IMG/VR virus record: IMGVR_UViG_3300010430_000277
Coordinates: 1-34,609 of that record
Reading direction: 5' to 3' (one strand)
DNA from: a virus
DNA: 34,609 nt
This document shows positions 21,912 through 34,609 of the stretch, in pieces (the stretch's first letter is position 1; each line of letters begins with the position of its first letter). The position numbers were made by a program, and so were the translations under genes. A model generated the notes under the pieces. It made no database searches. It was not told where the DNA came from and worked only from the letters and a program-made list of their open reading frames with translations.

Positions 21912-21917
21912 ATTTCA

Positions 21918-21945: not shown

Positions 21946-21976
21946 GGATCTTACGCGTAATAAACTAAGGAAGCTT

Positions 21977-22275: not shown

Positions 22276-22285
22276 TTGGCGCACC

Positions 22286-23328: not shown

Positions 23329-23566
23329 CCGGCATACTCACCCTAGGTGCGGCATCGAGGCCGCAAGTGCATTTGGTTTGTCCCTCATTGGGAAAGCTCG
23401 AAGTGTCTTGAACAAGGGCGCACTCAATCTTGTGCCTCCCATACTTCTCCAACGCCGCACGGAGGCGGGTGATTTCGTCCTCGTACCAATTCCTCTCGCC
23501 CCTCCTCATTGAAATGATTTCTTCGGGGTCGCCCAAGATGTTTCCGTCACCATCTCTAACTACCAT
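23321..23566 (-). CDS. 81-residue protein with a C-terminal Cys cluster
   Basis: The ATG at 23566 has a good AAGGGG upstream; a longer reading was rejected because it overlaps another well-supported gene. The N-terminal part (VVRDGDGNILGDPEEI) is followed by a charged helix with 'YEDEITRLRAALEKYGRH' and then 'CALVQDTSSFPNEGQTKCTC', giving three Cys and a preceding His that could bind zinc. It overlaps both neighbours by about ten bases. Function unknown. Confidence 0.55.
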   Translation of the reverse strand: MVVRDGDGNILGDPEEIISMRRGERNWYEDEITRLRAALEKYGRHKIECALVQDTSSFPNEGQTKCTCGLDAAPRVSMPDA

Positions 23567-23681
23567 CCGGCCCCCCTTCCTCGGTGCGGAGGGCGGCTTC
23601 GCCGTCTTTCTTCCACTTTTCAAGTTGAGCAAACATTTTCTCCAAATGGATCTCCATCCACTTCGGCACATCATCGGTCAT
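23556..23681 (-). CDS. 41-residue protein, unknown function
   Basis: It starts with an ATG that overlaps the upstream stop as ATGA, and ends 11 bases into the next gene. The peptide is a single amphipathic, Lys/Glu-rich helix (VPKWMEIHLEKMFAQLEKWK) with a polar tail. No family is recognised. The tight coupling is the main evidence that it is translated. Confidence 0.5.
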   Translation of the reverse strand: MTDDVPKWMEIHLEKMFAQLEKWKKDGEAALRTEEGGPDGS

Positions 23682-24097
23682 TTGTTCTGCTCCCGATGCT
23701 TCAGCCTGTCAAGAAGCTCCTGAATTGCCCTCTCTTCTTTGTGGTCGGGTGGGTTTATCACCGCATGGATGGCATCCACTTGTGCGGCTGTTACTCCGGT
23801 GGGGAGGGCGTGTAGTGCGTTTACCACCATCCTTGCTAACTTTCCCTGGTGGATGGGCTTTTTGTCGGGGCGTGGTTTGATTTCTTCGATTCCAATGAGG
23901 AGGGCGGTCATCGGCCAATCGTGCTTGTGCGGGGTTATGTAGTGGAGCCATTCTTTTGTTCCATCCCCATAAACCCGCACCCCCTCGGCGGCGAGTTTGG
24001 CGTTTGCGATTTGGGCGGCCCACACTCTCGACTCACCAATCTTGCTGTGGATATACTCATCCTTCGGTAAAAAATCCTCCGGCTTGAAGAAGCTCAT
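23678..24097 (-). CDS. 139-residue protein, unknown function
   Basis: The start (ATG at 24097) overlaps the stop of the basic 50-residue gene (ATGA). The middle contains 'WLHYITPHKHDWPMTALLIG' and the C-terminal half is helical (VVNALHALPTGVTAAQVDAI, then an acidic-basic helix). It lacks Cys pairs. The DNA of this gene has about seven CAG/CTG triplets, near the random rate, against almost none in most neighbours, so it may have arrived from a different source. No function can be named. Confidence 0.6.
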   Translation of the reverse strand: MSFFKPEDFLPKDEYIHSKIGESRVWAAQIANAKLAAEGVRVYGDGTKEWLHYITPHKHDWPMTALLIGIEEIKPRPDKKPIHQGKLARMVVNALHALPTGVTAAQVDAIHAVINPPDHKEERAIQELLDRLKHREQNK

Positions 24098-24246
24098 ACA
24101 ATCTTCTTTCCGTCGATACTCAACCCACGCAATCCGAAATCAATCAACGATCCCGGCCAACCAATCGCACTCAAGGCCTTGCGCTTTTGGGCTCTCTTTT
24201 GGAGCCATTGCGTCTTGAGTGCGTTTTTATTTTTCTTCTTCTTCAA
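24094..24246 (-). CDS. 50-residue basic protein
   Basis: It starts with TTG at 24246, preceded by GAGGAG eight bases upstream, and ends in ATGA with the next gene. The N-terminus is almost entirely Lys and Asn (KKKKNKNALK), followed by 'QKRAQKRKAL' and a hydrophobic stretch with 'GWPGSLIDFGLRG'. The strong positive charge suggests nucleic-acid or acidic-protein binding. Alternatively it is a chance open frame, though the ribosome site and junction argue for translation. Confidence 0.45.
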   Translation of the reverse strand: MKKKKNKNALKTQWLQKRAQKRKALSAIGWPGSLIDFGLRGLSIDGKKIV

Positions 24247-24403
24247 TCTCTTTCTCCTCGTAAGCGTACTTAATCCAAAGTTTTATATCATCGGCCAAGC
24301 TTCGATGGTCCGTGCGGTGAGAGTTCCGGCGTTGCCTCATGGCGCACTCGAAGTCGTGAGCCGCCTTTGCAAGCTCGGCGGTATCTTTTAGGCCGTATTT
24401 CAC
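24227..24403 (-). CDS. 58-residue helical protein
   Basis: It starts with GTG at 24403, four bases after the previous stop, and ends in a poly-Glu/Lys tail that overlaps the next gene by 20 bases. The sequence begins MKYGLKDTAELAKAAHDFEC and has a second helix with 'LADDIKLWIKYAYEEKE'. It resembles small all-helical phage proteins, but I recognise no family. An alternative GTG in another frame four bases upstream gives a less protein-like product. Confidence 0.5.
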   Translation of the reverse strand: MKYGLKDTAELAKAAHDFECAMRQRRNSHRTDHRSLADDIKLWIKYAYEEKEIEEEEK

Positions 24404-24407
24404 TCAC

Positions 24408-24749
24408 TCATTCCGCCCCGAAACTAAAGTCGAACTCGTCGCGCAATGGCAAGACTTGAAATAGCGTCCCTTTCTTGTAGCAAAATTGGCCTTGAATTGC
24501 GGCTTTATCTTTTGCCTCAAAAAATCTTACTTCCGGCTCCGCGTTTCGACCATCCGGCCACGCGATTAAAACAAAGCCCTTGCCGCAACCATCCTCGCGG
24601 ACAACGTTATCGCGTTGCACCTTGTCGAGAAGCTCGGCATAATTCGCGCGCCACGTACAAGCCGAACAACCGGCCAAGCTATCATAAAAACCGCCGCAAG
24701 AATCGCACTCGATTAGAGCCTTGTTTAGGTCTATACCGGACTCGTGCAC
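24408..24749 (-). CDS. zinc-ribbon protein, 113 residues
   Basis: The frame is open for another 249 bases upstream, but that stretch is fully covered by the preceding gene in a better-supported frame, so I place the start at the GTG at 24749, four bases after that stop. Near the N-terminus lie CDSC and CSAC pairs spaced by about nine residues (C-x2-C-x9-C-x2-C), a clear zinc ribbon. A beta-rich part follows (GKGFVLIAWPDG, VRFFEAKDK). Function unknown; a DNA- or RNA-binding role is possible. Confidence 0.6.
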   Translation of the reverse strand: MHESGIDLNKALIECDSCGGFYDSLAGCSACTWRANYAELLDKVQRDNVVREDGCGKGFVLIAWPDGRNAEPEVRFFEAKDKAAIQGQFCYKKGTLFQVLPLRDEFDFSFGAE

Positions 24750-24753
24750 GGTC

Positions 24754-25071
24754 TCAAATTTCTCCGGTTTGAGATCTAAGGCTTTCGGCTTCCGCGGTCC
24801 GGATTTCTTCGCCGACTTCGTTATAGATTTCCGCGATAACAAGGCGTCCTCGATCGACTTCCTCCGAATTCCATCCCGACTGACGCGTAACCTTAGTAAG
24901 GAGTCCAATATGTTTAAAGGCGGTTTTCGCAATGTCTTGCGCGGTTTCAAGGTTTGACGCACCGCCGATTTCCCGGAGGGCGTGTATCGCGATTTCATAT
25001 TTTGCCTTTCTTCGTTTGTAATACGATTGGTTTATTATGGTCCGTTTTTCGGGCTTGCTTGGGGTAGGCAT
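24754..25071 (-). CDS. 105-residue protein, unknown function
   Basis: The first gene after the internal terminator. It has its own promoter (TTCACA-17-TACAAT) and a GGAGG site eight bases before the ATG. The N-terminus is basic (RTIINQSYYKRRKAKYE); helices follow (IAIHALREIGGASNLETAQD, then FKHIGLLTKVTRQSGW). The order of helices loosely suggests a winged-helix or other DNA-binding fold, but I would not assign it. Strong expression signals suggest a role early in infection. Confidence 0.65.
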   Translation of the reverse strand: MPTPSKPEKRTIINQSYYKRRKAKYEIAIHALREIGGASNLETAQDIAKTAFKHIGLLTKVTRQSGWNSEEVDRGRLVIAEIYNEVGEEIRTAEAESLRSQTGEI

Positions 25072-25096
25072 GGGGGGACACCTCCGGTTATGTCGG

Positions 25097-25125
25097 ATTG
25101 TAGCTCAAGGTTGATACATTGTGAA
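25097..25125 (-). promoter_or_regulatory. promoter TTCACA-17-TACAAT with dyad operator
   Basis: It lies just downstream of an intrinsic terminator and drives the genes from 25071 leftward. A TGTAGCT-N6-TGATACA dyad at 25099-25118 is centred 18.5 bases upstream of the predicted +1 (25090), the same geometry as six other promoters in this window. The 19-base leader carries CCGGAGG. Confidence 0.65.
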
Positions 25126-25126
25126 G

Positions 25127-25173
25127 AAAAAAAAGCCGACCGGGCGTCTTTGTAAGGAGAATACCCGGCCGAC
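25127..25173 (-). terminator. intrinsic terminator with a leader-complementary loop
   Basis: In the leftward RNA a ten-base-pair stem (25173-25164 with 25144-25135, two G-U pairs) is followed by eight U residues. It ends the 26848-25222 operon. Its 19-base loop contains AUUCUCCUUAC (25162-25152), an exact complement of the first 11 bases of that operon's mRNA, GUAAGGAGAAU, and of 9-10 bases of four other early leaders. The terminator call is firm; the pairing function is inference. Confidence 0.8.
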
Positions 25174-25221
25174 CAAGAGAGAGCCCGACAATTAAGCCGG
25201 ACAAGAGAAGAAGAACCCGCA

Positions 25222-25467
25222 TTATAGCTCATGTTGAGAGCCGCGGTCCGAAAATTCTCCGCAATAATCGGCCGATTTAGTCCGGGGGTGGTGCGCGGCC
25301 GAGTCGAAACGACCACCGGACATACAAGGCGGAAACCGGACGCACTTACCCTCGGTGGGGTGTGGTTGAGGCTCGAGCCCCATTGGACGAATATACGTAC
25401 TCCGCTCCCAAAAGTGACAATGGTCGCAACGTAAGCCGGATTCCGGCCCCTTCACGAGTTCGGACAT
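25222..25467 (-). CDS. Cys-rich small protein (paralogue B)
   Basis: An 81-residue protein whose ATG at 25467 overlaps the stop of the upstream gene (TAATG). It has the pattern CDHCHFW, then 'GKCVRFPP', and near the C-terminus 'TKSADYCGEFSDR'. The neighbouring upstream gene has the same order of motifs, so the pair arose by duplication. This 'C..C.fW...C.RfPP...DwCGEF' pattern occurs in short phage proteins of unknown function and probably binds one metal ion. It is the last gene before the terminator. Confidence 0.65.
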   Translation of the reverse strand: MSELVKGPESGLRCDHCHFWERSTYIRPMGLEPQPHPTEGKCVRFPPCMSGGRFDSAAHHPRTKSADYCGEFSDRGSQHEL

Positions 25468-25718
25468 TAGGCACCCTCCCGCGGTATAAATTCTCCGCAC
25501 CAATCGTAATTAACGGTTTTTGGGTATTGAGTCGAGAAAATGGTCTTTGTGGACGGAGTTACGGCCAAACCCCTAAATTCGTAAGCGGTCGGAACCAAGG
25601 TCGGCGGAAACCGGCAACAATCGCCCTCCGTATTTTCTCCGGTGGTTCCATCCCAATACACGCACCTCGAGCACGACTTAACGGGATAGACGGTTGGGTC
25701 TATCTTCGGCTCGCTCAT
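25467..25718 (-). CDS. Cys-rich small protein (paralogue A)
   Basis: An 83-residue protein with CSRCVYW near residue 16, 'GDCCRFPPT' near 33 and 'VNYDWCGEFIPR' at the end. The downstream gene has the same layout. The ATG at 25718 overlaps the previous stop as ATGA, with a GGGGAAAA stretch before it. Four Cys are conserved between the copies, suggesting a small metal-binding fold. Function unknown; retention of both copies implies different partners or dosage need. Confidence 0.65.
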   Translation of the reverse strand: MSEPKIDPTVYPVKSCSRCVYWDGTTGENTEGDCCRFPPTLVPTAYEFRGLAVTPSTKTIFSTQYPKTVNYDWCGEFIPREGA

Positions 25719-25870
25719 TTTTTCCCCATTTCCTTAAATAGACAAACATAACAAAGCACGTCTTGAGGTCGGATTTTACCCGCCGCCCAATTACGGCGAC
25801 CCTCCGGACTAAAGTCGGTAAGCTTAAGCTTGACGCCGCACCGATCACATTTGGGGGTAGGGTGGGTCAT
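25715..25870 (-). CDS. small zinc-ribbon protein
   Basis: A 51-residue protein from an ATG at 25870 (ATGA with the preceding stop) ending in ATGA with the next gene. It has CDRC at residues 8-11 and CYVC at 40-43, the two knuckles of a zinc ribbon, with 'FSPEGRRNWAAGKI' between them. A Lys-rich helix ends the protein. Function unknown; it is one of at least five Cys-pair proteins in this operon. Confidence 0.6.
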   Translation of the reverse strand: MTHPTPKCDRCGVKLKLTDFSPEGRRNWAAGKIRPQDVLCYVCLFKEMGKK

Positions 25871-26025
25871 GAGTTGGCTTCCTCATGCGAAATATCATCG
25901 ACTAATTTTTGGATCGCTTTATATTCGTTGCCATAACCCAAGAAGGCACGAAGGACGCGGCTAATGCGGTGCTCAAGATAGACCACCTTTTCGGCGTCGC
26001 TCATCTTTGCGTATTTCTTTAGCAT
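25867..26025 (-). CDS. 52-residue helical protein
   Basis: I chose the ATG at 26025, which overlaps the previous stop by seven bases, over an in-frame ATG at 26067 that would overlap by 49. The sequence starts MLKKYAKMSDAEKVVYLEHR and continues as helices with 'AFLGYGNEYKAIQKLVDDI'. It is wholly alpha-helical, with no Cys. No family is recognised. The start remains uncertain. Confidence 0.5.
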   Translation of the reverse strand: MLKKYAKMSDAEKVVYLEHRISRVLRAFLGYGNEYKAIQKLVDDISHEEANS

Positions 26026-26288
26026 GATCTCAACCCCAAATCGGCGCGCGGCAATTTGTGCCCGCATTTCGTTTCGGTAAGTTTCCAAAGCCCCATCTCG
26101 CGCAAAATTTCCACGCAACGAAATCGAAATTTTTCTTCGGTCAAATTCGAGAATCTCTCCCGTACGTGAGTATCGTACGTCGTGTCTTCGGGATGAACCA
26201 AGAGCCAATATTGGTATTTTTCGAATTTATACAAAATAAACTCGAGCCCATGCTCTCGGGCGATCTTTTTCGCGGTTGCGTAGTGCAT
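26019..26288 (-). CDS. 89-residue protein, unknown function
   Basis: The ATG at 26288 is preferred over a TTG at 26339 that overlaps the previous gene. The N-terminus has an Arg/His helix (YATAKKIAREHGLEFILYKF) followed by strands (YQYWLLVHPED), then a helix with 'FRFRCVEILREMG' and a Lys/Cys-rich tail. A perfect 6-bp hairpin (CCGGGC loop GCCCGG, loop CTAA) lies just before the ATG, where a ribosome site would be, so translation may be coupled or repressed. Function unknown. Confidence 0.5.
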   Translation of the reverse strand: MHYATAKKIAREHGLEFILYKFEKYQYWLLVHPEDTTYDTHVRERFSNLTEEKFRFRCVEILREMGLWKLTETKCGHKLPRADLGLRSC

Positions 26289-26302
26289 CGAAGAGCCCGG
26301 GC

Positions 26303-26848
26303 CTAAGCCCGGACCTCCATAAGCGGTTTTGGTTCCCAAGATTTGTAACGAGCTTCTTGTTTCTCAATGTCGCCGAGAAGGTGCTCCAAATTCCTTTCGG
26401 CTTTAAGGATTGCGTTATCGCGGAAGCGATCTATCGCGGAGTCGAGATCGTACAAGCCGCAAGAAATCGCCGAGCGGGTCCTCTCGACTCTTTCGGCCCC
26501 ATTTCTGCCCGCCTTAATTTCGCTAAATATAATTTGCAACTCTCCGTCGCCGTCAACCTCGAGGCGGACCGGATCACCTCCGCTAATGAGCCCCTCTTGG
26601 CTCTTGCTTTTTTTGAGCTCGTATTGGCGGTCGACATTTCCCTTAAAGGTTGCGATCATACCCTTGAGGCGCTCAACAAAACGGCCCAAGACCTCGCGAG
26701 ATTCTTCGAAGGGTTGCTCTTCGGAGCCGGGACAAGTTCCGCTAAACTCTCCCCATTGGACCCGGTAACCGTGCTTTGATAGTTTGCCTTTGGGTAGCTT
26801 TTGAAGCCGTCCGCAAATTTGGCAAGTGCCCTTGTGGGTTGCTTTCAT
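26303..26848 (-). CDS. zinc-finger phage protein, first gene of the leftward early operon
   Basis: A 181-residue protein. Its N-terminus 'CQICGRLQKLPKGKLSKHGY' followed by 'VQWGEFSGTCPGS' matches a widespread family of phage proteins with a Cys2-His-Cys-like zinc site and no assigned role. About residues 45-170 are charged helices with a short strand-rich part (VRLEVDGDGELQIIFSEI), probably coiled. It is the first gene after promoter TTGCCA-17-CACAAT; the mRNA should start with the 14-base leader GTAAGGAGAATCCA directly before the ATG. High early expression is likely. Confidence 0.7.
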   Translation of the reverse strand: MKATHKGTCQICGRLQKLPKGKLSKHGYRVQWGEFSGTCPGSEEQPFEESREVLGRFVERLKGMIATFKGNVDRQYELKKSKSQEGLISGGDPVRLEVDGDGELQIIFSEIKAGRNGAERVERTRSAISCGLYDLDSAIDRFRDNAILKAERNLEHLLGDIEKQEARYKSWEPKPLMEVRA

Positions 26849-26868
26849 TGGATTCTCCTTACGCCCCT

Positions 26869-26897
26869 ATTGTGGCCCAAGCTCGCCACGTTGGCAA
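26869..26897 (-). promoter_or_regulatory. leftward early promoter TTGCCA-17-CACAAT with operator
   Basis: The -10 hexamer is at 26874-26869 and the -35 at 26897-26892. The dyad at 26871-26890 (TGTGGCC-N6-CGCCACG) is centred 18.5 bases before +1 (26862). The transcript begins with GTAAGGAGAATCCA directly before the ATG at 26848. It is divergent from the promoter at 26943. Confidence 0.75.
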
Positions 26898-26942
26898 GTC
26901 CAATCCGGAAAAAAGATTAAAAAACTTTTTTAGAAAAAGAGC

Positions 26943-26970
26943 TTGCATTGTAGCCGGTTTGGGCTACACT
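26943..26970 (+). promoter_or_regulatory. rightward early promoter TTGCAT-16-TACACT with operator
   Basis: The dyad TGTAGCC-N6-GGCTACA (26949-26968) is a perfect 7-base inverted repeat filling the spacer and overlapping the -10 element. The predicted +1 is 26977, giving a 14-base leader GTAAGGAGAGCGAA to the ATG at 26991. This is the best operator copy in the window. Confidence 0.8.
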
Positions 26971-26990
26971 AAGAGAGTAAGGAGAGCGAA

Positions 26991-27155
26991 ATGAGATACG
27001 CAATAACATTAAAAAACACCGAAACGGGCAAAAGCAAAATTTGGCAATATAGCTCGGACTTGGAAAACGCCAACGCCATTCAAAACGACTATTACAAAAA
27101 CCAGCAAATTGATGGCGTTAAGTGCGAAATCGTCAAAGTGGAGGACCGGTCCTAA
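26991..27155 (+). CDS. 54-residue early protein, unknown function
   Basis: The first rightward early gene, expressed from the promoter at 26943 with a 14-base GTAAGGAG leader. The protein (MRYAITLKNTETGKSKIWQY at its start) is rich in Asn, Lys and Tyr and has a beta-beta-alpha feel, with a single Cys. Its stop overlaps the ATG of the metallopeptidase gene (TAATG), so the two are translated together. No family is recognised. Confidence 0.65.
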   Translation: MRYAITLKNTETGKSKIWQYSSDLENANAIQNDYYKNQQIDGVKCEIVKVEDRS

Positions 27156-27547
27156 TGGGCCGGCTTCCTTCCTCTAGGTGGGGCGAGGCTCGCGACATGA
27201 GCCCCGAAACCTACAAACTCCGTCGGGCCGTTATGAAGCTTATCTACGACGCTAAAGCCCTACACGGCGGCTCTATGGCCCGCGTCGAGCTTCGCATAAC
27301 CGACCTTAGCGAAGAAGGCGAAAAAAGGCACATCTTGGGCTCCGCGCTCATGGGCAAGCGCATCGTCTATATCCCGGCCTCTACGGTGGTCGATGCCAAG
27401 TTACGCCAAGTCGTCTACCATGAGCTTTTACACGCCCTATACGGCGTCGAACACGACGAGAGTTGCCCCCTTATGACCTCTTGCTTCGCCTACGACATGA
27501 GCCGAGAGGAGGCCGACGGCCTATTTCGGAAATACATCGGGGCCTAG
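27155..27547 (+). CDS. predicted zinc metallopeptidase (HExxH)
   Basis: A 130-residue protein. Residues 89-107 read HELLHALYGVEHDESCPLM: the HExxH zinc motif with Glu90, a further His100 as probable third ligand and a CPLM segment like the Met-turn region of archaemetzincins and other minimal zincins. The third His lies one residue further than in the classical HExxHxxGxxH. A preceding strand (RIVYIPAST) and helix (KLRQVVYHELLHALYG) fit the zincin core. There is no signal peptide, so it acts in the cytoplasm. A host protein may be its target; that is inference. A terminator overlaps the stop codon. Confidence 0.75.
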   Translation: MGRLPSSRWGEARDMSPETYKLRRAVMKLIYDAKALHGGSMARVELRITDLSEEGEKRHILGSALMGKRIVYIPASTVVDAKLRQVVYHELLHALYGVEHDESCPLMTSCFAYDMSREEADGLFRKYIGA

Positions 27548-27563
27548 TGCCCCGATTTTTTTT
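27538..27563 (+). terminator. intrinsic terminator overlapping the peptidase stop codon
   Basis: CGGGGC (27538-27543) pairs with GCCCCG (27549-27554) around a five-base loop that holds the TAG stop, followed by A and eight T residues (27556-27563). A ribosome at the stop would cover the hairpin, so termination may depend on translation ending. Confidence 0.85.
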
Positions 27564-27584
27564 CGTCTTTTTTTAAGATTCCCC

Positions 27585-27612
27585 TTGTATCGTGGCCCAA
27601 TTAGGCTACACT
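27585..27612 (+). promoter_or_regulatory. rightward promoter TTGTAT-16-TACACT with operator
   Basis: The dyad CGTGGCC-N6-GGCTACA (27591-27610) has its centre 18.5 bases before the predicted +1 at 27619. The transcript would start with the 14-base leader GTAAGGAGAACGAG before the ATG at 27633. It follows directly after the terminator at 27538-27563. Confidence 0.8.
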
Positions 27613-27632
27613 AGAGAAGTAAGGAGAACGAG

Positions 27633-27839
27633 ATGAAAACCACCACCTACCACATTAAAAAGACCTTCACAAAGGGCACTCTCGAAGGCATGACCTTTTG
27701 GGATTACGACGCGGTGAGCTATCCCGCCGGAACCGATTTCCAAGCCCACCACGTCGACGGAGTTAATAAAAATCACTCTAAAGGCCGAGTCGATTACAAA
27801 ATCGTCGAATGGATGGTGGGAAACCACAAGACAATCTAA
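27633..27839 (+). CDS. 68-residue early protein, unknown function
   Basis: A single gene unit with its own promoter and 14-base GTAAGGAG leader. The protein begins MKTTTYHIKKTFTKGTLEGM and continues with Trp, Tyr, His-rich strands (FWDYDAVSYPAGTDF, HHVDGVNKNHSKGRVDYKI). Beta-rich, basic and small, with no Cys; several His could bind metal. No family is recognised. Its isolated promoter points to independent regulation, typical of host-takeover genes. Confidence 0.65.
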   Translation: MKTTTYHIKKTFTKGTLEGMTFWDYDAVSYPAGTDFQAHHVDGVNKNHSKGRVDYKIVEWMVGNHKTI

Positions 27840-27903
27840 GACCCGAAGCCGGAGCCCCAAGCGGAGGCGGAGGGGCGGATTTGAAAATCGACCCGGATTT
27901 CTC

Positions 27904-27931
27904 TTGTATCGTGGCCGCGTTGTGCTACTAT
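27904..27931 (+). promoter_or_regulatory. rightward promoter TTGTAT-16-TACTAT with operator
   Basis: The dyad CGTGGCC-N6-TGCTACT (27910-27929) is centred 18.5 bases before the predicted +1 at 27938; the leader GTAAGGAGAAGGCA is 14 bases long. The right half-site is one or two bases weaker than in the two preceding promoters. Confidence 0.75.
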
Positions 27932-27951
27932 ATGGGTGTAAGGAGAAGGCA

Positions 27952-28128
27952 ATGAAAAACGAAAGCCAAAGACGGAAGGCTCAAAAGGCGGCTTGGAACC
28001 GGACCTATAAAGCGGCCTCAAAAAGGCTCGCCAAGGGCGAGAGAAGCCGCACAAGCCTCGAACTCGCCCGCCTCATGGATAGACTAGACGGCGGAAACCG
28101 GGTCGAGACCTTCCACAAGGGGGCCTAG
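27952..28128 (+). CDS. 58-residue basic protein
   Basis: It starts with the ATG at 27952 that follows the 14-base leader; an upstream in-frame ATG would precede the promoter and is rejected. The sequence MKNESQRRKAQKAAWNRTYK is followed by 'ASKRLAKGERSRTSLELARL'; it is highly basic and helical, suggesting nucleic-acid binding. No helix-turn-helix or Cys pair is visible. The stop lies in a GCC-TAG context before a GC-rich non-coding region. Confidence 0.65.
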   Translation: MKNESQRRKAQKAAWNRTYKAASKRLAKGERSRTSLELARLMDRLDGGNRVETFHKGA

Positions 28129-28463
28129 AGCCCGGAGCCGAGCCGGGAGCGCCCCAAGCGCGGACGGCGACGGAGGTCCGACGGGCGTGGTCGACTGCCA
28201 TTATGGCGGTCTTTCCCGGTTTATCCTTGATTTTTAGGGCTACCCTCCATAGGCTAGGCATGGGCGGCGGCTGATGCCCACGAGCTCGGCTACGACGAGT
28301 CGGCTCCGCCTTGGGGGCTCCGCCTCCTCGAGCCCCGTTGGTGGTGCGATTGAGTGAGGGCTTACCGGGGTCGTGACCGGCTTTCCGTCTATACAAAAGG
28401 GGTCTTAAGTTGTAATGGGCATCTTAAGGGGCCGGGGTATGATGGGGGTGTAAGGAGAGAGAG
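28129..28463 (+). other. 335-base GC-rich non-coding stretch
   Basis: No convincing gene lies here on either strand. It holds CCCGG-type short repeats, a seven-pair hairpin (28193-28199 with 28205-28211, then TTT) that could be a weak terminator, a pair of GGCTCCGCC copies around 28302-28328 and the promoter of the next gene at its right end. A similar GC-rich patch follows the gene ending at 27839. Beyond that I see no clear function; a replication-origin role cannot be excluded. Confidence 0.5.
28416..28443 (+). promoter_or_regulatory. candidate promoter TGGGCA-16-TATGAT
   Basis: It gives a +1 at 28450 and the same 14-base leader (GTAAGGAGAGAGAG) as four other early genes, which supports the call. 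The dyad operator found in the other promoters is absent, so this unit may escape the shared control. The -35 element is weak. Confidence 0.5.
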
Positions 28464-28700
28464 ATGGAAAAGCCAAAAATTAGATTTCGGAAAAAGGCCC
28501 TCTTTGAGCATCATAAAAAGCTTATGGAGGAGCATTGGAAGCTAGCGAAGAAAGACCCGAAAGACCCAATCGTAAGGCGCGAACGATCGGACAACCGCCA
28601 AGCCCGAATGAGCATTATGGATACGATTAGGTTCTTTTTTGAGTGGTCCGAGGCCGAAAAGATTATTTCGGAGATGAGAGATTACGCCAATCTAAGTTAA
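28464..28700 (+). CDS. 78-residue helical protein, unknown function
   Basis: The last rightward early gene. It has the standard GTAAGGAG leader. The sequence is highly charged and helical (FRKKALFEHHKKLMEEHWKL, then RRERSDNRQARMS and a hydrophobic 'MDTIRFFFEW'). No Cys pair or membrane segment is present. Its stop TAA overlaps the stop of the convergent leftward gene inside a TTAA, with no terminator visible between them. Function unknown. Confidence 0.65.
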   Translation: MEKPKIRFRKKALFEHHKKLMEEHWKLAKKDPKDPIVRRERSDNRQARMSIMDTIRFFFEWSEAEKIISEMRDYANLS

Positions 28701-28834
28701 GCCCGGTCCGCCTCTTCCGTTAGGCGGCGGCGTTGGTCCGCGTTTGCCATCTTCCAAATTGCCTTAGCCGTCTTAAGGGTGCAACCTAGCTTTTTCGCCA
28801 TCTTCCGGCACGTCTTGGACGCCTTCCCGTTCAC
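28697..28834 (-). CDS. 45-residue basic protein
   Basis: It starts with GTG at 28834, overlapping the previous stop as GTGA, with AAGG upstream. The sequence MNGKASKTCRKMAKKLGCTL continues 'KTAKAIWKMANADQRRRLTE'. Lys/Arg-rich helices with a possible short helix-turn-helix (KMAKKLGCTLKTAKAIWK) suggest DNA binding, but the peptide is too short to be sure. It is the final gene of the leftward replication operon. Confidence 0.5.
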   Translation of the reverse strand: MNGKASKTCRKMAKKLGCTLKTAKAIWKMANADQRRRLTEEADRA

Positions 28835-29052
28835 TCTAAGCCCTTCTTCCAACCTTCCCCGTCGTCGTCTTCTTCCTCGATGCTCACGGTCTCGTTGTTG
28901 TCGGCAAAGACCATTAACTTTAACTTTTCCAAGACGCCAATAACCGTTAGATCCTCGATCCCGAGGTCGATCCAATGCTCGATAACGGCCTCGAGATCCT
29001 CGAAAAGCCCCTCGTCCGGGAGCCGCGGAAGCTCCTCTTTCTCTTTGCTCAT
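28831..29052 (-). CDS. 73-residue acidic protein
   Basis: The ATG at 29052 has a strong GGAGG five bases upstream, better than an ATG 21 bases earlier. The protein is acidic and helical (LFEDLEAVIEHWIDLGIEDL, then 'VIGVLEKLKLMVF') and ends 'EEEDDDGEGWKKGLE'. The charge and size resemble DNA-mimic or inhibitor proteins made by phages, but that is only suggested by composition. It overlaps the next gene by four bases. Confidence 0.6.
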   Translation of the reverse strand: MSKEKEELPRLPDEGLFEDLEAVIEHWIDLGIEDLTVIGVLEKLKLMVFADNNETVSIEEEDDDGEGWKKGLE

Positions 29053-29097
29053 GATGCCTCCGGTCGGCTTCATGCTAGGTCGTTACCGGGGCCGACT

Positions 29098-29274
29098 CTA
29101 GGCTTTTTTATGGGCCGTTTTGAGGCGCTCTAGGCGTATGATACGGCTTAAAATTTGGGAGCCGCAATTGGGGCAAAACTCCATCGGCTCGAGCTTTTGA
29201 AGGTTCCCGGCCCGCCTCGTGAGGTCGTAAGATTGGTTATGCCTTATGGGCCAATCGTGCTTACAAACCCGCAT
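29098..29274 (-). CDS. 58-residue Cys/His protein
   Basis: The ATG at 29274 lies inside the end of the nuclease gene (14-base overlap); a TTG 15 bases earlier is an alternative. It has one Cys and a His near the N-terminus (VCKHDW) and a CPNC pair at about residues 34-37, so a one-metal zinc site of mixed ligands is likely. A basic helix ends the protein. Function unknown. Confidence 0.55.
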   Translation of the reverse strand: MRVCKHDWPIRHNQSYDLTRRAGNLQKLEPMEFCPNCGSQILSRIIRLERLKTAHKKA

Positions 29275-29752
29275 GAAGGCATCTCTCAATGAATGTATCC
29301 CAACCGTAAGACTCCACTTCGGGTTGATCCCGAAATCGCATTACCCAATTGCCATCATGGGCCTCGAAGGCGTCCTTTATATCGTGAATATCGGGCACGG
29401 TAAAGAAGGTTAACGCGTTCGTTTGGAGCCCCATAAGATCGCCCGTATAAGCGGCCACAATATATTCCCGCTCGCGATACTCGTCGTAAGCGTGCCGAAG
29501 ATACGCCTTGTGGTCGACGATGTTTATCCAATCAAAATAAGCCGGATTCTTTTTGTATTTGCACTCGACGTAACGCCTAAGATCCGGGAGGTATAGATCC
29601 GGCGTCTTGTCGGTTGGCCCATCTTGCTCGTAAAGACGCCCCCGACCCGAGGGCTTAATGTCGACCCACTCGTCGCCGATCGCATCTTCAAGCAAGACCT
29701 CGAAGCGTTCCCCCCACTCCTTATAGGTTTCGAATTGGGAGTCGGGCTTCAC
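29261..29752 (-). CDS. PD-(D/E)xK family nuclease
   Basis: A 163-residue protein starting with GTG at 29752 (GTGA with the preceding stop). Residues 51-65 read 'PDLYLPDLRRYVECK', matching the PD-x(10)-ExK core of restriction-like nucleases (Asp52, Glu63, Lys65); an earlier Glu (about 18, in RFEVLLEDAIG) fits the helix that completes the site. A later 'YIVAAYTGDL' strand fits the fold. In phages such proteins act as VRR-type or Holliday-junction nucleases in replication. It lies in the helicase operon, consistent with a DNA-processing role. Confidence 0.65.
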   Translation of the reverse strand: MKPDSQFETYKEWGERFEVLLEDAIGDEWVDIKPSGRGRLYEQDGPTDKTPDLYLPDLRRYVECKYKKNPAYFDWINIVDHKAYLRHAYDEYREREYIVAAYTGDLMGLQTNALTFFTVPDIHDIKDAFEAHDGNWVMRFRDQPEVESYGWDTFIERCLHAGL

Positions 29753-29922
29753 TTGTGTCCAAAGGGTGCTTTCGGCACAAAGGAGACTTGCAAATCCATT
29801 TCGAGTAAAAGGCGGGCGTACTCGTGGGCTGACTTGCCCAAGACTCGGCCTTTCTTCTCGGCAAGTTTGTACATTTCCGGCGAGATCCGGAAGCGTATCG
29901 GTGGTGATTCTTTAGTCTTCAT
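29749..29922 (-). CDS. ribbon-helix-helix-like protein
   Basis: A 57-residue protein. After a short polar start there is a strand (PIRFRIS), then a helix (PEMYKLAEKKGRVLGK) and a second helix (SAHEYARLLLEMDL), the order and length of ribbon-helix-helix regulators that bind short DNA dyads as dimers. It overlaps the preceding gene by 11 bases and the nuclease by GTGA. It is a reasonable candidate for the protein that recognises the TGTRGCC-type operators of this region, but nothing shows that directly. Confidence 0.55.
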   Translation of the reverse strand: MKTKESPPIRFRISPEMYKLAEKKGRVLGKSAHEYARLLLEMDLQVSFVPKAPFGHK

Positions 29923-30193
29923 TTGTCCCCCCCTTGGGATTAAGTACCTTTTCCACGGCGTCGAAAAGCTCGCCTTCTTTTTCGTTTTGGGGGATATACG
30001 TATCTAAAAAGTCTTGCAAAAGCCCCTCGCATTTTTCGGCCCGGAGCTTGTAGCGTCGGCTTGTGTCGCGGCTAACCTTGTGTTTTCCGCTAGCTTTTAG
30101 GTATTTCTGAACATCTTTCCACTTCACCCACTCGCCTTTCGGCGTTCTCATGAAGCCCTCGCGGGTGCTGTTATACCTTTGCGGCTCGTCCAT
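29912..30193 (-). CDS. 93-residue protein, unknown function
   Basis: The ATG at 30193 shares a base with the TAA of the leaderless gene upstream and has GAGAGG six bases before it. The N-terminus includes 'TPKGEWVKWKDVQKYLKASG' and the middle is basic (HKVSRDTSRRYKLRAEK), followed by an acidic helical C-terminus (LLQDFLDTYIPQNEKEGELF). The WKDVQKYL pattern appears in small phage proteins with an unassigned domain. Function unknown. Confidence 0.6.
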   Translation of the reverse strand: MDEPQRYNSTREGFMRTPKGEWVKWKDVQKYLKASGKHKVSRDTSRRYKLRAEKCEGLLQDFLDTYIPQNEKEGELFDAVEKVLNPKGGTNED

Positions 30194-30318
30194 TATTTGC
30201 CTCTCCACGGTCCTCGGACCCGATCGCGGCTCGCCTCACGCTTTGCCTTTTGGAAGGCGCGAAAGCGGGCCTCTTTTTCCTTGGAAGGTGTCGGCTTCCC
30301 TTGCGTGGGAGTTTTCAT
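30193..30318 (-). CDS. 41-residue basic protein, predicted leaderless
   Basis: A peptide (MKTPTQGKPTPSKEKEARFR at its start, rich in Lys and Arg) with no ribosome site. The promoter TTGACA-17-CACAAT places the transcript start exactly at the A of this ATG. It is the first gene of a leftward unit downstream of the helicase; its promoter overlaps the helicase stop codon. Likely a nucleic-acid binding peptide, but no family is seen. Confidence 0.5.
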   Translation of the reverse strand: MKTPTQGKPTPSKEKEARFRAFQKAKREASRDRVRGPWRGK

Positions 30319-30324
30319 GGTCTC

Positions 30325-30353
30325 ATTGTGGCCCAAGTGTGCGCCCATGTCAA
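30325..30353 (-). promoter_or_regulatory. leftward promoter TTGACA-17-CACAAT with operator
   Basis: A consensus -35 lies at 30353-30348 and the -10 at 30330-30325. The dyad TGTGGCC-N6-TGCGCCC (30327-30346) is centred 18.5 bases before +1, which falls on 30318, the first base of the ATG. It sits across the helicase stop codon, so the downstream genes can be made independently of the helicase. Confidence 0.75.
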
Positions 30354-31600
30354 GAGCCGGAGGCTACCGATTTAAGATCTATAAGGCTTTTGTCCGTCGT
30401 AATTTGGCCGATAAAGCCCGTTGCGGGGTTGATATGTAAATTAAATTTTTCCGTTGGCCCGTTTCGATTTTTGGCGACTCTCACCTCGAGGTTACTCATG
30501 GTGTGGGTTTCGGGATCAACCTTATAAGGCCACCAAGCAAGAAGCGCCAAGTGCGCGTTTTCCTCGATGCCGCCGGACTCTTTTAGGTCCGATAAGTTAG
30601 GCATACGATTGGCCGAGCCCCGGTTAACTTGGCTTAAGATCACCATTGCGGCACCGTATTTATTCCCGAGTTCCCGTATGCGGCGGCTTAAATTGCTTAT
30701 GTGGTAGGCCGGGGTTTGACCCTTGTCTTCCGGCATTACTTGGCCTAGAAGTTGGATATGGTCGATTACGACTAGGTCGGGCTTGTGCTCAATCATGACC
30801 GCCTCGATATCCCCAAGATCCGGGCAATCAAGAAGCCGGAACCGATCCTCGTAACGAGTCTTAAGGCGGCTGATTTCCTCTTCGGATTTTTTAAGCGCGA
30901 ATTCGTCACGACCCACAAGAAGCGTATGTTTGTGCATCTTGGCCGCAATCGCGGTAAGTCCGTACACGATGCCCCGCGTCCCCATCTCATAATCACAATA
31001 AAGAACGCGTTGTCCCTCTTTCATAACGTGGTGAACGCAATTTAGGGCGATCGTGGTTTTGTTGTGCGAGGTCGGGGCCGATATCACGCTTAAGGCCCCT
31101 CTTGTAAACCCGCCCGTAATTTCATTGAAGTCGGACCAAGGGAGCGGGATATCCGGTTCTTGCTTTTCGACCCTCAATCTTACGCCCTCGATAGCATCGG
31201 CGAAAACATCGACGGCCGCTTGCCGGTCGAACCCATGTCGGCGCCATTCCTCCATCGTCTCTTGGATGGCGTTAAGATCGGCCCCCGCATCTTGAAGCTT
31301 CCCCATGTAATGAGAGTCGCGCAAGCCCTCGACCCGATGGCGGACAATGTCCGCGCTTAGTTCCGGGCTCTCCCCCGTAAGGGCGACAACCTTAGAGATC
31401 CGCTCTTGACATTGGGTCGCGACCGAGACCGCGTCGAATTCGGTCCCCTCCCAAATATGCTTAACGATGCAACCGTAAATCTTTTGGTAATCGGGGCTTA
31501 CCCAATCAACATCGATACGGGAAATATAAGGGCGGGCTAGTTCGGAATCTAAAAGGAAGGCACCAAGGAGTTGCCTCGTTAAGATCTCCGAATCGTGCAC
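30350..31600 (-). CDS. replicative DNA helicase (DnaB-type)
   Basis: I start the gene at the GTG at 31600 (GGAG nine bases upstream), giving 416 residues; the open frame runs back to a TTG at 31663. The N-terminal domain begins with 'HDSEILTRQLLGAFLLD', as in DnaB proteins. The C-terminal domain has a deviant Walker A (SAPTSHNKTT, with Asn instead of Gly before Lys), 'YCDYEMGTRG', Walker B 'DLVVIDHIQLL', 'VILSQVNRGS' and 'LSDLKESGGIEENAHLALL'. It should unwind the phage replication fork as a hexamer. No loader or primase gene is visible nearby. Confidence 0.9.
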   Translation of the reverse strand: MHDSEILTRQLLGAFLLDSELARPYISRIDVDWVSPDYQKIYGCIVKHIWEGTEFDAVSVATQCQERISKVVALTGESPELSADIVRHRVEGLRDSHYMGKLQDAGADLNAIQETMEEWRRHGFDRQAAVDVFADAIEGVRLRVEKQEPDIPLPWSDFNEITGGFTRGALSVISAPTSHNKTTIALNCVHHVMKEGQRVLYCDYEMGTRGIVYGLTAIAAKMHKHTLLVGRDEFALKKSEEEISRLKTRYEDRFRLLDCPDLGDIEAVMIEHKPDLVVIDHIQLLGQVMPEDKGQTPAYHISNLSRRIRELGNKYGAAMVILSQVNRGSANRMPNLSDLKESGGIEENAHLALLAWWPYKVDPETHTMSNLEVRVAKNRNGPTEKFNLHINPATGFIGQITTDKSLIDLKSVASGS

Positions 31601-31702
31601 GCGTGCCGGCTCCGTAAAAAAAGCCGGGGTATACCCCAAGGCTTGACCGGAATACGACCGCAACGGACCGCACTTTTTGGGATAACCCCGGCGAAAACTT
31701 AG

Positions 31703-31722
31703 GGTGGCCGGTCAAGACCACC
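31703..31722. promoter_or_regulatory. orphan operator-like dyad between divergent operons
   Basis: GGTGGCC-N6-GACCACC is a seven-base inverted repeat, matching the core of the early operators (GTGGCC-N6-GGCCAC on the other strand). It lies between the leftward helicase and the rightward nuclease genes. No good -35/-10 pair fits it (leftward TTGTTG-15-CACCCT is weak), so it may be a pure binding site or a weak helicase promoter. Confidence 0.45.
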
Positions 31723-31760
31723 AACAATTTAACCGCGGAAATTTTTTTTGCAAGGCACAT

Positions 31761-31788
31761 TTGCAATTGTGGCCCGTTTGTGTATCCT
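31761..31788 (+). promoter_or_regulatory. rightward promoter TTGCAA-16-TATCCT with operator
   Basis: The dyad TGTGGCC-N6-TGTATCC (31768-31787) is the weakest of the set. By -10 spacing +1 is 31795, and by operator register it is 31796, the first base of the nuclease ATG; either way the mRNA has essentially no leader. It drives the recombination genes. Confidence 0.65.
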
Positions 31789-31795
31789 TGTGTTT

Positions 31796-32785
31796 ATGCC
31801 GCTCGAGACTATCTCCACCTCGGAAGCCAAAACTTGGCTATCGTGTCCCCGCGAAGGAAAGCATAAATACGTCGACCTTCGAGTCTCGGCCCGAGAGAAT
31901 AAGCATCTTTGGATGGGCTCTCTAGTTCACTTTGCGCTTGAGCGGTTTTGGCAAAATAAAAAAGCCACCGAGATGGACATTATTTCCGCGCTCAATGAAT
32001 GGAGCGAAGACAATCCTTATAATGATGCCCGCGACGAAGAGATTTATCTCGCGCAAGCCCGGGCAATGATGGCCGGCTATTGGAACGCGTGGCACCGAAG
32101 CCGGGAGGATTGGGAGTACATCGGCGTCGAAGGGCCGGTCCGCATGGAGTTGGAGGGCACCGGTTACGAGTTTGTCGGTAAGTTTGACGCGCTCGCGACT
32201 TATATCCCCCAAGATAAAAAATTTCTCATTGAACACAAGACCACCTCCGAAGATATCGAAAGGCCGGACGCCTTTTATTGGCTTAGACTCCAATCCGACA
32301 AGCAACTTACGGGATATAAGGCCGCTAAGGAGCGGGAAATCGGCGAAGAGATCGGTCTCCTTTATGACGTTTTGCGTAAGCCAACGGGTCGTGGCCCAAA
32401 AATGAAGAGCCGCATTGTTAAGCGTAAGACCGAAACCCAAGAAGAGTTCGAACTACGTAAGGCGGATGCCACCGAATCCTTTTTTGAATATCAAGAACGG
32501 CTCGAGGCCGAGTACGTTGAGGCGCCCGGAACATTTTTCGCACGCCGGGAAATTTTTCGCACCCTCGAAGATCTCGAAGAGTGGGAACAAGAGTTAATTA
32601 CCACGATAAAAACCGTTGAACAATTTAAGGCTTCTGATATATTTCCTCGTAATGATGGTCATTGCAAGAGATTCGGGTCCGTTTGTCCCTACTTCGGGGT
32701 ATGTAATAAAATGGAGTCGATTGATTCCGGCAATTTTAAAGACAAGGAGTCGAAGCACGTAGAGCTTCCCTTTCTAAATACGTAA
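31796..32785 (+). CDS. Cas4/RecB-like PD-(D/E)xK exonuclease
   Basis: A 329-residue protein from an ATG at 31796 without ribosome site, predicted leaderless. It shows the RecB/AddB/Cas4 nuclease order: 'SEAKTWLSCPREGKHKY' with Cys17, 'GSLVHFALERFW' (His45), 'VGKFDALA' (Asp131), 'LIEHKTT' (Glu146, Lys148) and 'QLTGYKAAK'. The C-terminus has three Cys (HCKRFGSVCPYFGVCN) which with Cys17 can hold a 4Fe-4S cluster. It should degrade or process DNA ends for recombination, together with the ATPase and SSB-like proteins that follow in the same operon. Confidence 0.85.
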   Translation: MPLETISTSEAKTWLSCPREGKHKYVDLRVSARENKHLWMGSLVHFALERFWQNKKATEMDIISALNEWSEDNPYNDARDEEIYLAQARAMMAGYWNAWHRSREDWEYIGVEGPVRMELEGTGYEFVGKFDALATYIPQDKKFLIEHKTTSEDIERPDAFYWLRLQSDKQLTGYKAAKEREIGEEIGLLYDVLRKPTGRGPKMKSRIVKRKTETQEEFELRKADATESFFEYQERLEAEYVEAPGTFFARREIFRTLEDLEEWEQELITTIKTVEQFKASDIFPRNDGHCKRFGSVCPYFGVCNKMESIDSGNFKDKESKHVELPFLNT

Positions 32786-32821
32786 CCTTTTCCCAATTGA
32801 CCTAGTAAAAAGGAGGACTGT

Positions 32822-33763
32822 ATGGGAGTACCAAGGATTATAAAAGGGGCACAAGATAGCCCCGTCCGGGCCGGACTTATCGGCGGACCCGGGACCGGCA
32901 AGACGACGCTTGCCTCACTATTTCCGAAGCCGATTATCGGACAAACCGAAGACGGGGCCTTTGCGCTCAATGTCGACAAATTCGATTTAATCAAGACTTG
33001 GCAAGAATTGATTGAGTCCGTCGAGTGGCTCGAAACCGAGGAGCACGACTATAAAACCTTTGTAGTCGACACCATCGGAGACGCCGAAAAAATGTTGCAC
33101 GATTACGTGTGCAAAAAATACTATAAGGGAAAATGGGACGCGGAACGCAATACCGATTCCTTTATGAATTTCGGACGGGGATACAAAACCTCCGCACAAG
33201 AGATCGACCAACTTACGGAGCGGCTTGATCGTCTCCGGGCCAAGCGTGGCATGAACATTATTCTTATTGCCCACGCCCAAAACTCGATCGAGAAAAACCC
33301 GCTCGGCTCCGATTGGGGCAAGATTACGGGCAACCTCCATAAGGAGGCATGGCAAAAGATTCTTGGTTGGTGTGACATTGTTGGTTACATCGGCACCGAG
33401 AAGCGCGTTATTGGTGGGGATGGCGATCGCGCCGGTAAGGCCGTTGCCAAGGGTGGCCGCACCATTACTTTCGATGGTCACCCCGGGTTAGACGTCAAGA
33501 CCCGCGCCGGTTTTGATTTGCCGGCCGTTATGCCCCTTGACTATGAAGAGCTCGCGGCGCACCTCTTTGGCAATAAAAAGCCCCACCTTGAAGAGCTTAA
33601 AGCCGAGTTCGAGGCCCTTTTGGGCAACGTTGACGCCGAAACCGCGGAAAAGGCGGTCGCCTATATTGGGAAAAAACCCACCGTTGAAAAACTCAAAGCC
33701 GCAATTAACCGACTGATTTTAAACTTGCAAGCCGAAAGTGAGAAAGCTAATGCTACCGTTTAA
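32822..33763 (+). CDS. Sak4-like ATPase (AAA_24, RecA fold)
   Basis: A 313-residue protein with AAGGAGG about six bases before the ATG. The Walker A motif GGPGTGKT is at residues 21-28, Walker B in 'YKTFVVDTIGDAE' near 78, and 'IILIAHAQN' near 142 resembles the motif-III strand of RecA-fold ATPases. This is the plan of phage Sak4-like single-strand annealing or recombinase proteins of the AAA_24 family. The last 60 residues form a helical tail (VEKLKAAINRLILNLQ). The adjacent nuclease and SSB-like protein make up a complete recombination module. Confidence 0.85.
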   Translation: MGVPRIIKGAQDSPVRAGLIGGPGTGKTTLASLFPKPIIGQTEDGAFALNVDKFDLIKTWQELIESVEWLETEEHDYKTFVVDTIGDAEKMLHDYVCKKYYKGKWDAERNTDSFMNFGRGYKTSAQEIDQLTERLDRLRAKRGMNIILIAHAQNSIEKNPLGSDWGKITGNLHKEAWQKILGWCDIVGYIGTEKRVIGGDGDRAGKAVAKGGRTITFDGHPGLDVKTRAGFDLPAVMPLDYEELAAHLFGNKKPHLEELKAEFEALLGNVDAETAEKAVAYIGKKPTVEKLKAAINRLILNLQAESEKANATV

Positions 33764-34214
33764 CCCCGAAGATTTTAACGCCGAAGAAGAGAATAAGCCC
33801 AAGATCGAGCCCGGGCAATACGATTTCCGTATCGTCGAGGCCGAGATGAGATACACCGAAGGCCGCGCCGGAGCCAAGCTCGAAAAGGGCACTCCGTATC
33901 TTAATCTCAAGCTTGCCGCCGAGGTGAGCGAAGCCAAAGACGTCACCGTCTACGACTCGATTTTCTTTTACAGCAACTCGTGGCTTAAAAAAATGAACGA
34001 CTTTTGCAACTCGATCGGCATCAAGTTCAGCAATAACATTGATCCGAAAGACCTTGAAGACAAGACCGGCCATGCAAATTTCAAGATCGGTAAGAATGGT
34101 TATCTTGACGTCGCTTGGTACATTGACGCCAAGGAAGCCGGCGGTCCGAGTGGCTCACCGGTCGCTAATGCCCGGAAGCAAATCGAAGCCGAATCCGGCA
34201 ACATACCGTTTTGA
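33750..34214 (+). CDS. DUF669-like single-strand DNA-binding protein
   Basis: A 154-residue protein; the ATG at 33750 overlaps the ATPase gene by 14 bases (a GTG 12 bases earlier is possible). The sequence 'FNPEDFNAEEENKPKIEPGQ' followed by 'YDFRIVEAEMRYTEGRAGAK', then 'YLNLKLAAEV' and 'YDSIFFYSNSWLKKMNDFCN' matches the DUF669 pattern. The C-terminus ends SGNIPF, like the acidic-IPF tip by which bacterial SSB recruits partners, although fewer acids are present. DUF669 genes beside Sak4 or RecT-type recombinases are thought to be SSB substitutes. Confidence 0.75.
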   Translation: MLPFNPEDFNAEEENKPKIEPGQYDFRIVEAEMRYTEGRAGAKLEKGTPYLNLKLAAEVSEAKDVTVYDSIFFYSNSWLKKMNDFCNSIGIKFSNNIDPKDLEDKTGHANFKIGKNGYLDVAWYIDAKEAGGPSGSPVANARKQIEAESGNIPF

Positions 34215-34250
34215 TTCGAAAGGAGAGCCCGGTAGCCGCGAGGCCCGGTG

Positions 34251-34338
34251 CCAAGGGGTGTTTGTTGATTTCTGCCCTTGGTTTATCCGCTCTCCGTCCT
34301 TTGTCCGAGGGGGAGGGGCTTAATTGCCTCTCCCTCTC
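34251..34338 (+). promoter_or_regulatory. two RNA hairpins between the SSB-like gene and the membrane protein
   Basis: Hairpin 1 pairs CCAAGGG (34251-34257) with CCCTTGG (34275-34281). Hairpin 2 pairs 34307-34319 with 34326-34338 over 13 positions (two G-U pairs) with loop TTAATT, ending three bases before the ATG at 34342. Only three U residues follow, so this could be a partial terminator, an attenuator or a translation block for the next gene. A GGAGAG motif upstream at 34222 lacks a start codon. Confidence 0.5.
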
Positions 34339-34341
34339 TTT

Positions 34342-34578
34342 ATGAAAGGTTCCCCCGCCTTGACGGAATTTGTCTTAGAGCTCCAAAAGACGCAAGCTCT
34401 CATCTTAAGCCTAGATTCGAATTTGACTCGGCTAACCATTTGGGCTTCAATTCTGACCGGCGCACTTGTCGCCGTTGTCTTTATGAATGTGGGAGCTTAT
34501 GCCAAAGCCAAGGCTAAAAGCCGAAGTTGTACATCTTGCCGAGGACCGATTTCACGTTCGGATACCGGTAAAAATTGA
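34342..34578 (+). CDS. small membrane protein
   Basis: A 78-residue protein with one membrane segment (about residues 30-52, TIWASILTGALVAVVFMNVG) after a helical N-terminus (ALTEFVLELQKTQALILSLD) and before a basic Lys/Ser tail with CTSC. Its ATG follows directly on a strong hairpin, with no good ribosome site, so start and expression are uncertain; a TTG six codons upstream or a later TTG are alternatives. Holin or superinfection-exclusion roles are possible for such proteins, but nothing specific supports either. Confidence 0.45.
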   Translation: MKGSPALTEFVLELQKTQALILSLDSNLTRLTIWASILTGALVAVVFMNVGAYAKAKAKSRSCTSCRGPISRSDTGKN

Positions 34579-34609
34579 GTCCCTTAATTATTTTTTACCC
34601 AACGTCCGC

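Follow-up and report, generated by a model that had tools for sequence, protein, structure and literature searches.

How could a virus keep many of its promoters under a single control? The question is raised by IMG/VR virus record IMGVR_UViG_3300010430_000277, a linear record of 34,609 bases (possibly incomplete, or a fragment) that was analysed over its full length and is called the window here. A sequence-only reading of this DNA had proposed that seven promoters on both strands carry one operator family, a dyad close to TGTRGCC-N6-GGCYACA at a fixed distance from each predicted start, and had named a ribbon-helix-helix (RHH) protein encoded at 29749-29922 as the first suspect for its regulator. 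Here we find that the dyads are real and that the operator family is mostly as that reading described it; judged by layout and sequence, the family is identified as DinJ-type, after the operator of the E. coli antitoxin DinJ. With moderate confidence, we propose that the dyads are operators of an RHH repressor with DinJ-like specificity, most likely the 29749-29922 protein, which would switch off at least five transcription units together—one small virus protein would then probably hold most of the virus's gene switches at once.

The dyads and their place in the promoters

All seven dyad sequences were found where the sequence-only reading had placed them. They are better described as two facing 9-bp hemisites, TGTRGCYCA, lying 2 bp apart (9-2-9), than as two 7-bp halves around six bases, and they are listed here by the match of their -10-side and -35-side hemisites.

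25099..25118, minus strand: operator dyad of promoter 25097-25125(-); -10-side hemisite TGTAGCTCA exact; faces the leftward block containing structural genes
26871..26890, minus strand: operator dyad of promoter 26869-26897(-); -10-side hemisite TGTGGCCCA exact; upstream of open reading frame (ORF) 26303-26848
26949..26968, plus strand: operator dyad of promoter 26943-26970(+), the window's best site; -10-side hemisite TGTAGCCCA exact; upstream of ORFs 26991-27155 and 27155-27547
27591..27610, plus strand: operator dyad of promoter 27585-27612(+); both hemisites 8/9; upstream of ORF 27633-27839
27910..27929, plus strand: operator dyad of promoter 27904-27931(+); hemisites 6/9 and 7/9; upstream of ORF 27952-28128
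30327..30346, minus strand: operator dyad of promoter 30325-30353(-); -10-side hemisite TGTGGCCCA exact, -35-side half poor; upstream of the cluster with the RHH gene
31768..31787, plus strand: doubtful operator of promoter 31761-31788(+); -35-side hemisite 8/9, -10-side half 4/9; upstream of the exonuclease and Sak4-like genes

When the sites are aligned by their promoters, GTRGC and GCYAC are conserved, and the centre holds an invariant TT followed by G in six of seven; this central asymmetry is accounted for if the unit is a 9-bp hemisite, TGTRGCYCA, facing its partner across 2 bp. The exact hemisite occurs four times in the window where 0.21 are expected, each time on the -10 side of a dyad promoter (4/7 sites). 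At spacer 2, seven pairs reach 14 or more of 18 matches, against 0-3 pairs at each other spacer from 0 to 8; the seven comprise five of the claimed sites and two genic pairs at 10439 and 33836, with 27910 and 31768 falling below the threshold. The original TGTRGCC-N6-GGCYACA design holds insofar as the dyads are present and spacer 6 is favoured (at up to two mismatches, four sites at spacer 6 and 0-1 at every other spacer from 0 to 14), but the 9-2-9 form fits them better.

Counted with the original consensus and up to three mismatches, matches number 13 in the window and 2.0 (sd 1.4) on average in shuffles, a test that is circular. A leave-one-out symmetric matrix, built each time from the other six sites, ranks the seven at 16, 7, 2, 2, 14, 10 and 32 of 34,590 positions; six sites lie within the top 16, and the seventh, 31768, is the one at rank 32, with 25 genic positions scoring at or above it. 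In a scan of the full window with a matrix from all seven, the six top positions are six of the claimed sites and 31768 comes ninth. Those six positions all lie between genes, in the 5.2% of bases that a hand-made gene list leaves intergenic, and none is genic. Symmetry within the sites agrees—at the claimed centre 31 of 49 outer pairs are complementary, against a mean of 11.6 (sd 3.8) and a next best of 23 among 222 centres scored. One operator family is thus well supported for six promoters, strong in the leave-one-out test, but less so for the seventh, as 31768 has only one good half.

The geometry follows a similar division: six sites share one register, their centre 6.5 bases upstream of the first base of the -10, while the seventh is one base off. 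The -10 elements are predicted, and the -35/-10 spacer of the dyad promoters is 16 or 17; one hemisite covers the first four bases of the predicted -10, and the other lies within the spacer. A consensus promoter scan recovers three of the seven dyad promoters (25097, 26869 and 30325), and promoter-like sites in 20000-34609 show a weak excess (18 versus 11.9, sd 3.5, in shuffles). For two of the dyad promoters (regions 30319-30353 and 31783-31796) the predicted starts fall at or beside the start codon, which suggests leaderless messages.

Three further ideas were discarded. The eighth, orphan dyad once claimed at 31703-31722, which also scores as a hairpin, did not survive: three outside matrices rank it 163, 1721 and 3984. 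A recent origin of the promoter cassettes by duplication was ruled out by flanks and inner spacers that differ among the sites, and MerR-like activation, which goes with promoter spacers of 19-20, by spacers of 16-17.

Likeness to antitoxin operators

The E. coli DinJ operator is 20 bp long, with two 9-bp hemisites, a 2-bp spacer and overlap with the -10, and R10 of DinJ contacts the DNA (a passage of PMC9592637, citing Ruangprasert et al. 2014). The phage sites have the same makeup: a 20-bp inverted repeat of 9-2-9 layout, overlap with the predicted -10, and a hemisite, TGTRGCYCA, that resembles the TGTAGCTCA of the DinJ-YafQ operator. The two systems differ in use and in protein. E. coli DinJ has one operator that autoregulates one toxin-antitoxin operon, whereas the phage has the site in six or seven promoters; and the phage candidate, at 57 residues, is unlike DinJ in having no match to the RelB family model.

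For a comparison, four dinJ-type operons were taken from an E. coli collection; they were reached through the viral contig L016, itself found by a window-derived pattern, but were picked by gene similarity and not by pattern. Their promoters carry TGTAGCTCG-AT-TGAGCTACA, TGTTGCTCA-AT-TGAACTACA, TGTTGCTCA-TG-TGAGCTACA and TGTAGCTCA-AT-TGAGCTACA. A matrix from these four operators ranks the window sites, of 34,590 positions, at 2 (25099), 8 (26871), 1 (26949), 3 (27591), 41 (27910), 6 (30327) and 16 (31768).

In bacterial genomes, the promoter-operator pattern was found in 58 contigs, with about 7 expected from information content by our own estimate. The first downstream gene is Phd/YefM-like in 35, RelB/DinJ-like in 10, and other or absent in 13; Pfam confirmed all that were submitted of the 45 antitoxin-like first genes (three Phd/YefM-like and four RelB/DinJ-like). 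Operators of the two families have a common core and differ in their inner bases. The matrix built on the ten RelB/DinJ operators gives the window sites seven of the ten best positions, at ranks 7 (25099), 28 (26871), 1 (26949), 3 (27591), 9 (27910), 13 (30327) and 14 (31768) of 69,180 strand-positions, with the selection effect that the pattern used to retrieve these operators took its core from the window. A Phd/YefM-type repressor was rejected as binder, as the Phd/YefM matrix fits three sites only (rank 6 or better) and places the other four at 24, 57, 369 and 2143.

The Phd/YefM operons themselves (L137, L147, L173, L179 and about 30 other loci) carry, between TTGACA and the start codon, palindromes that are close to perfect, such as AATGTAGCTTCATGAAGCTACATT; the start codon comes about six bases past the -10 and leaves a very short leader. 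Two antitoxin families that differ in fold have a GTAGC-N8-GCTAC core in common, at one and the same promoter position.

The site also recurs in other phages. A relaxed pattern matched 56 viral contigs, none with two exact matches, and several of the matches lie in consensus-like promoters of unrelated phages; the strict promoter pattern gave four matches in viral contigs, each within an open frame (173-533 codons). With the upstream half made palindromic, the pattern matched 30 viral contigs and its control, with that half scrambled, 17 (counts without deduplication, some contigs being interrelated, and with one scrambled control). Perfect TTGACA is present in 18/30 of the former and 4/17 of the latter.

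Several of these sites have antitoxin-like or RHH-like genes nearby. A dinJ-like gene begins within about 30 bases of the site in L016, L018 and ten further contigs, as does a CopG-like RHH gene (Pfam RHH_1) in L109 and a gene that is RHH-like by eye in L214; within about 1 kb downstream, RHH-like proteins are encoded in L027 (NikA-like by Pfam), L097 and L102. The 90-kb record G001 has five dyad-like promoters in 84.0-89.7 kb (84033-89659) and an RHH_1 protein at 82.6 kb; this record (loci L034 and L134) is phage-like, its five promoters share the layout seen in the window, and its G+C content over L034 is 38%. A test with alignment A1, in-sample for the window and four phage records, found one further weak match with an internal stop, and no match in 26 control records.

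Two other settings of the site were seen. At L029:2572, L030:335 and L067:1841 about 60 conserved bases follow the dyad promoter, and after them comes a hairpin with a T run, as if a short RNA were made. In eight viral contigs (L211, L217, L222, L224, L228, L229, L233 and L235), 9-2-9 sites of the TGTAGCCCA/ACA type, without a good -35, stand directly before a long protein of 641-660 residues where complete, which we take to resemble ribonucleotide reductase.

Candidate binders and the proposed repression

One gene cluster, behind dyad promoter 30325, encodes the proteins to be considered.

29749..29922, minus strand: RHH-like protein of 57 residues, the most likely candidate binder; R10, R12, G29-K30-S31
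29261..29752, minus strand: ORF of 163 residues, PD-(D/E)XK-like motif by eye; start overlaps the RHH gene end by four bases; possible partner
28697..28837, minus strand: helix-turn-helix (HTH)-like ORF of 46 residues in the same cluster; rival candidate binder, sub-threshold matches only

The 29749-29922 protein has IRFRI at the place of VRARI in DinJ and keeps both DinJ arginines; when it is aligned with RHH proteins whose genes lie close to such sites (ten rows), R10 and R12 do not vary. In RelB, according to a portion of PMC2812701, N5 and R7 make the base contacts, the hexad read is [A/T]TGT[A/C]A, and the turn has the form G-X-S/T/N. G29-K30-S31 of the phage protein fits that turn, and its R-x-R would pair with a GC-containing hemisite. 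In a structure model (mean pLDDT 73) the N-terminus is extended and there are two helices, a topology that fits an RHH protein; the model's Foldseek matches in the PDB are mostly RHH proteins, Arc first, and its viral structure matches include several annotated RHH proteins, none significant. With no match to PF04221, the RelB/DinJ antitoxin family, at E <= 1, the protein is not filed as a RelB/DinJ antitoxin, and single-sequence searches with it against phages and the PDB gave nothing convincing. The adjoining ORF 29261-29752 has no Pfam or PHROG match; its four-base overlap with the RHH gene resembles the arrangement of antitoxin-toxin pairs.

What we infer—binder, occupancy, repression and autoregulation alike—runs as follows. 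Each 20-bp site would present two TGTRGCYCA hemisites, one at the start of the -10 and one in the -35/-10 spacer, and one RHH dimer would dock on each through its two-stranded sheet. The better hemisite is usually the -10 one, so occupancy of the site would impede either the binding of RNA polymerase or the opening of the promoter. Repression at either step is modelled on E. coli DinJ, described in a passage of PMC9592637 as repressing from a position over the -10, and on Arc of phage P22, which by a passage of PMC7730913 binds in the promoter spacer and slows open-complex formation. The repressor would jointly switch off at least five units, from promoters 25097, 26869, 26943, 27585 and 27904, and would also repress its own cluster (30325), with the exonuclease/Sak4 operon (31761) perhaps weakly affected; because the 30325 cluster contains the RHH gene, the circuit would be self-limiting. 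According to a passage of PMC9592637, steric hindrance rules out that two DinJ-YafQ tetramers bind the E. coli site cooperatively. No such clash would be expected for a 57-residue protein that lacks a toxin, and where the -10-side hemisite is exact, at four sites, one dimer may be enough.

Among known systems, Arc is a small stand-alone phage RHH repressor acting in the promoter spacer, as is proposed here, and it is the best PDB fold match; the position of the phage dyads fits the spacer, and the 57-residue protein is a predicted binder. Mnt of phage P22 is also a small stand-alone RHH repressor. The Arc operator has a different sequence from the phage dyads, and few promoters, not a set across the genome, are known to answer to Arc. 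SvtR of the archaeal virus SIRV1 differs in its archaeal promoters, its consensus and its binding, which for the most part lies upstream of the promoter. P1 C1 and the repressor of the mycobacteriophage L5 stoperators are examples of a single repressor serving operators dispersed over a phage genome, with asymmetric sites and other repressor folds; unlike these, the window sites are a dyad in fixed register with each -10. Our searches, over open-licence papers, yielded no published report of such a phage regulon, and a literature search by operator sequence found nothing relevant.

Several results weigh against the proposed RHH repressor and its operators, besides the selection of the ten RelB/DinJ operators noted above. 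Two members are weak by the original consensus, with 2/7 matches in the downstream half of 31761-31788 and 3/7 in the upstream half of 30325-30353, and a fifth TAAGGAG cassette at 28416-28443 has a promoter-like site without a dyad. On the four-operator matrix, three positions in the window score 10 or more, against a mean of 0.45 and a largest count of 3 in 60 shuffles; because three is also the shuffle maximum, the weaker sites have no significance on this matrix alone, and they stand on the leave-one-out and geometric evidence. The GTAGC core is not diagnostic by itself, with 35 of 58 bacterial matches Phd/YefM-like. For the protein, no PDB fold match reaches E <= 0.001 (best 0.46), and the Pfam match, NikA-like at E 0.12, is marginal. 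A profile of 11 other RHH proteins places it first of 653 frames, again marginally at E 0.029; a RelB/DinJ-only profile places it second at E 1.1, and with a phage-RHH-only profile it is not among the matches at E <= 10. Finally, PF01402 is found in 4/29 site-bearing phage records versus 2/26 controls and PF04221 in 2/29, so most site-bearing phages have no detectable RHH protein.

The last point sits well with a host-encoded RelB/DinJ-type antitoxin, alone or with its toxin, as the binder, the boldest of the alternatives, which would wire the phage promoters to the toxin-antitoxin state of the host; the close match of the window operators to cellular RelB/DinJ operators speaks for it too. The window has its own RHH-like gene behind one dyad promoter, however, and we regard a host binder as decidedly unlikely. 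That a different phage protein binds is, in our judgement, unlikely. The 28697-28837 product is in the same cluster and has weak HTH-like matches, but these are sub-threshold (HTH_50 at E 0.16; near_KaiC_dom at E 0.012, far below cut-off); a repressor might also be encoded past the ends of this linear, perhaps fragmentary record. Against both stands the 9-2-9 layout over the -10, the layout of an operator for which binding by an RHH protein has been shown elsewhere (a passage of PMC9592637).

The motif might instead be no operator at all: the downstream half would serve as the -10 region of a class of promoters, copied or convergent, that the host RNA polymerase uses. That half does overlap the -10 at all sites, three plus-strand cassettes have CTTGNAT and TAAGGAG in common, and the invariant central TT looks asymmetric. 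Yet the upstream dyad half corresponds to no sigma-70 element, the flanks and inner spacers vary among the sites, and an extended -10 would need the central TG two bases further downstream; the 9-2-9 model makes this TG part of the hemisite. Frames of more than 170 codons, moreover, hold 3/30 of the palindromic viral matches versus 14/17 of those with a scrambled upstream half, and we consider a mere promoter class highly improbable.

Extent of the proposed regulon and its meaning

The idea of one regulon with the RHH protein as first suspect gains from the DinJ operator, which the sites match in their length, spacing, hemisite sequence and place over the -10, but the scope is narrower than the early, replication and recombination genes originally proposed. 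The recombination operon depends on the weakest site, 31768, and the helicase promoter would need the rejected orphan. The strong site 25099 faces the leftward block, with portal, capsid, tape measure and terminase, rather than early genes; the right end of the window encodes a DnaB-like helicase, a PD-(D/E)XK exonuclease, a Sak4-like annealing protein and a weakly DUF669-like protein.

No relative was found for the promoter region, and the sole near-identical contig spans 11786-22622 only. Searches with TerL, DnaB, Sak4, portal, exonuclease and tape measure led to no more than distant relatives, to this same virus away from its regulatory region, or to no match at all. The exonuclease (31796-32785) has its sole matches among phage records in two phages of the acidobacterium Tunturiibacter, at 28-29% identity, a faint hint of the host group.

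The phage programme could further be an extended toxin-antitoxin regulon, with the level of free RHH repressor set by the toxin-like partner ORF (29261-29752) or by the RelB/DinJ system of the host; we hold this to be distinctly unlikely, and if it were true, stress-driven loss of antitoxin would release many phage promoters together. The proposed RHH repressor, if correct, would equip a bacterial virus with a genome-wide switch that uses the DNA code of DinJ-type antitoxins, and would connect Arc-like phage repressors with toxin-antitoxin autoregulation. Because the TGTRGCYCA 9-2-9 class recurs in promoters of unrelated phages, it provides a search handle for RHH repressors missed by sequence profiles, and it also offers a direct test of cross-talk between antitoxins and phage promoters.

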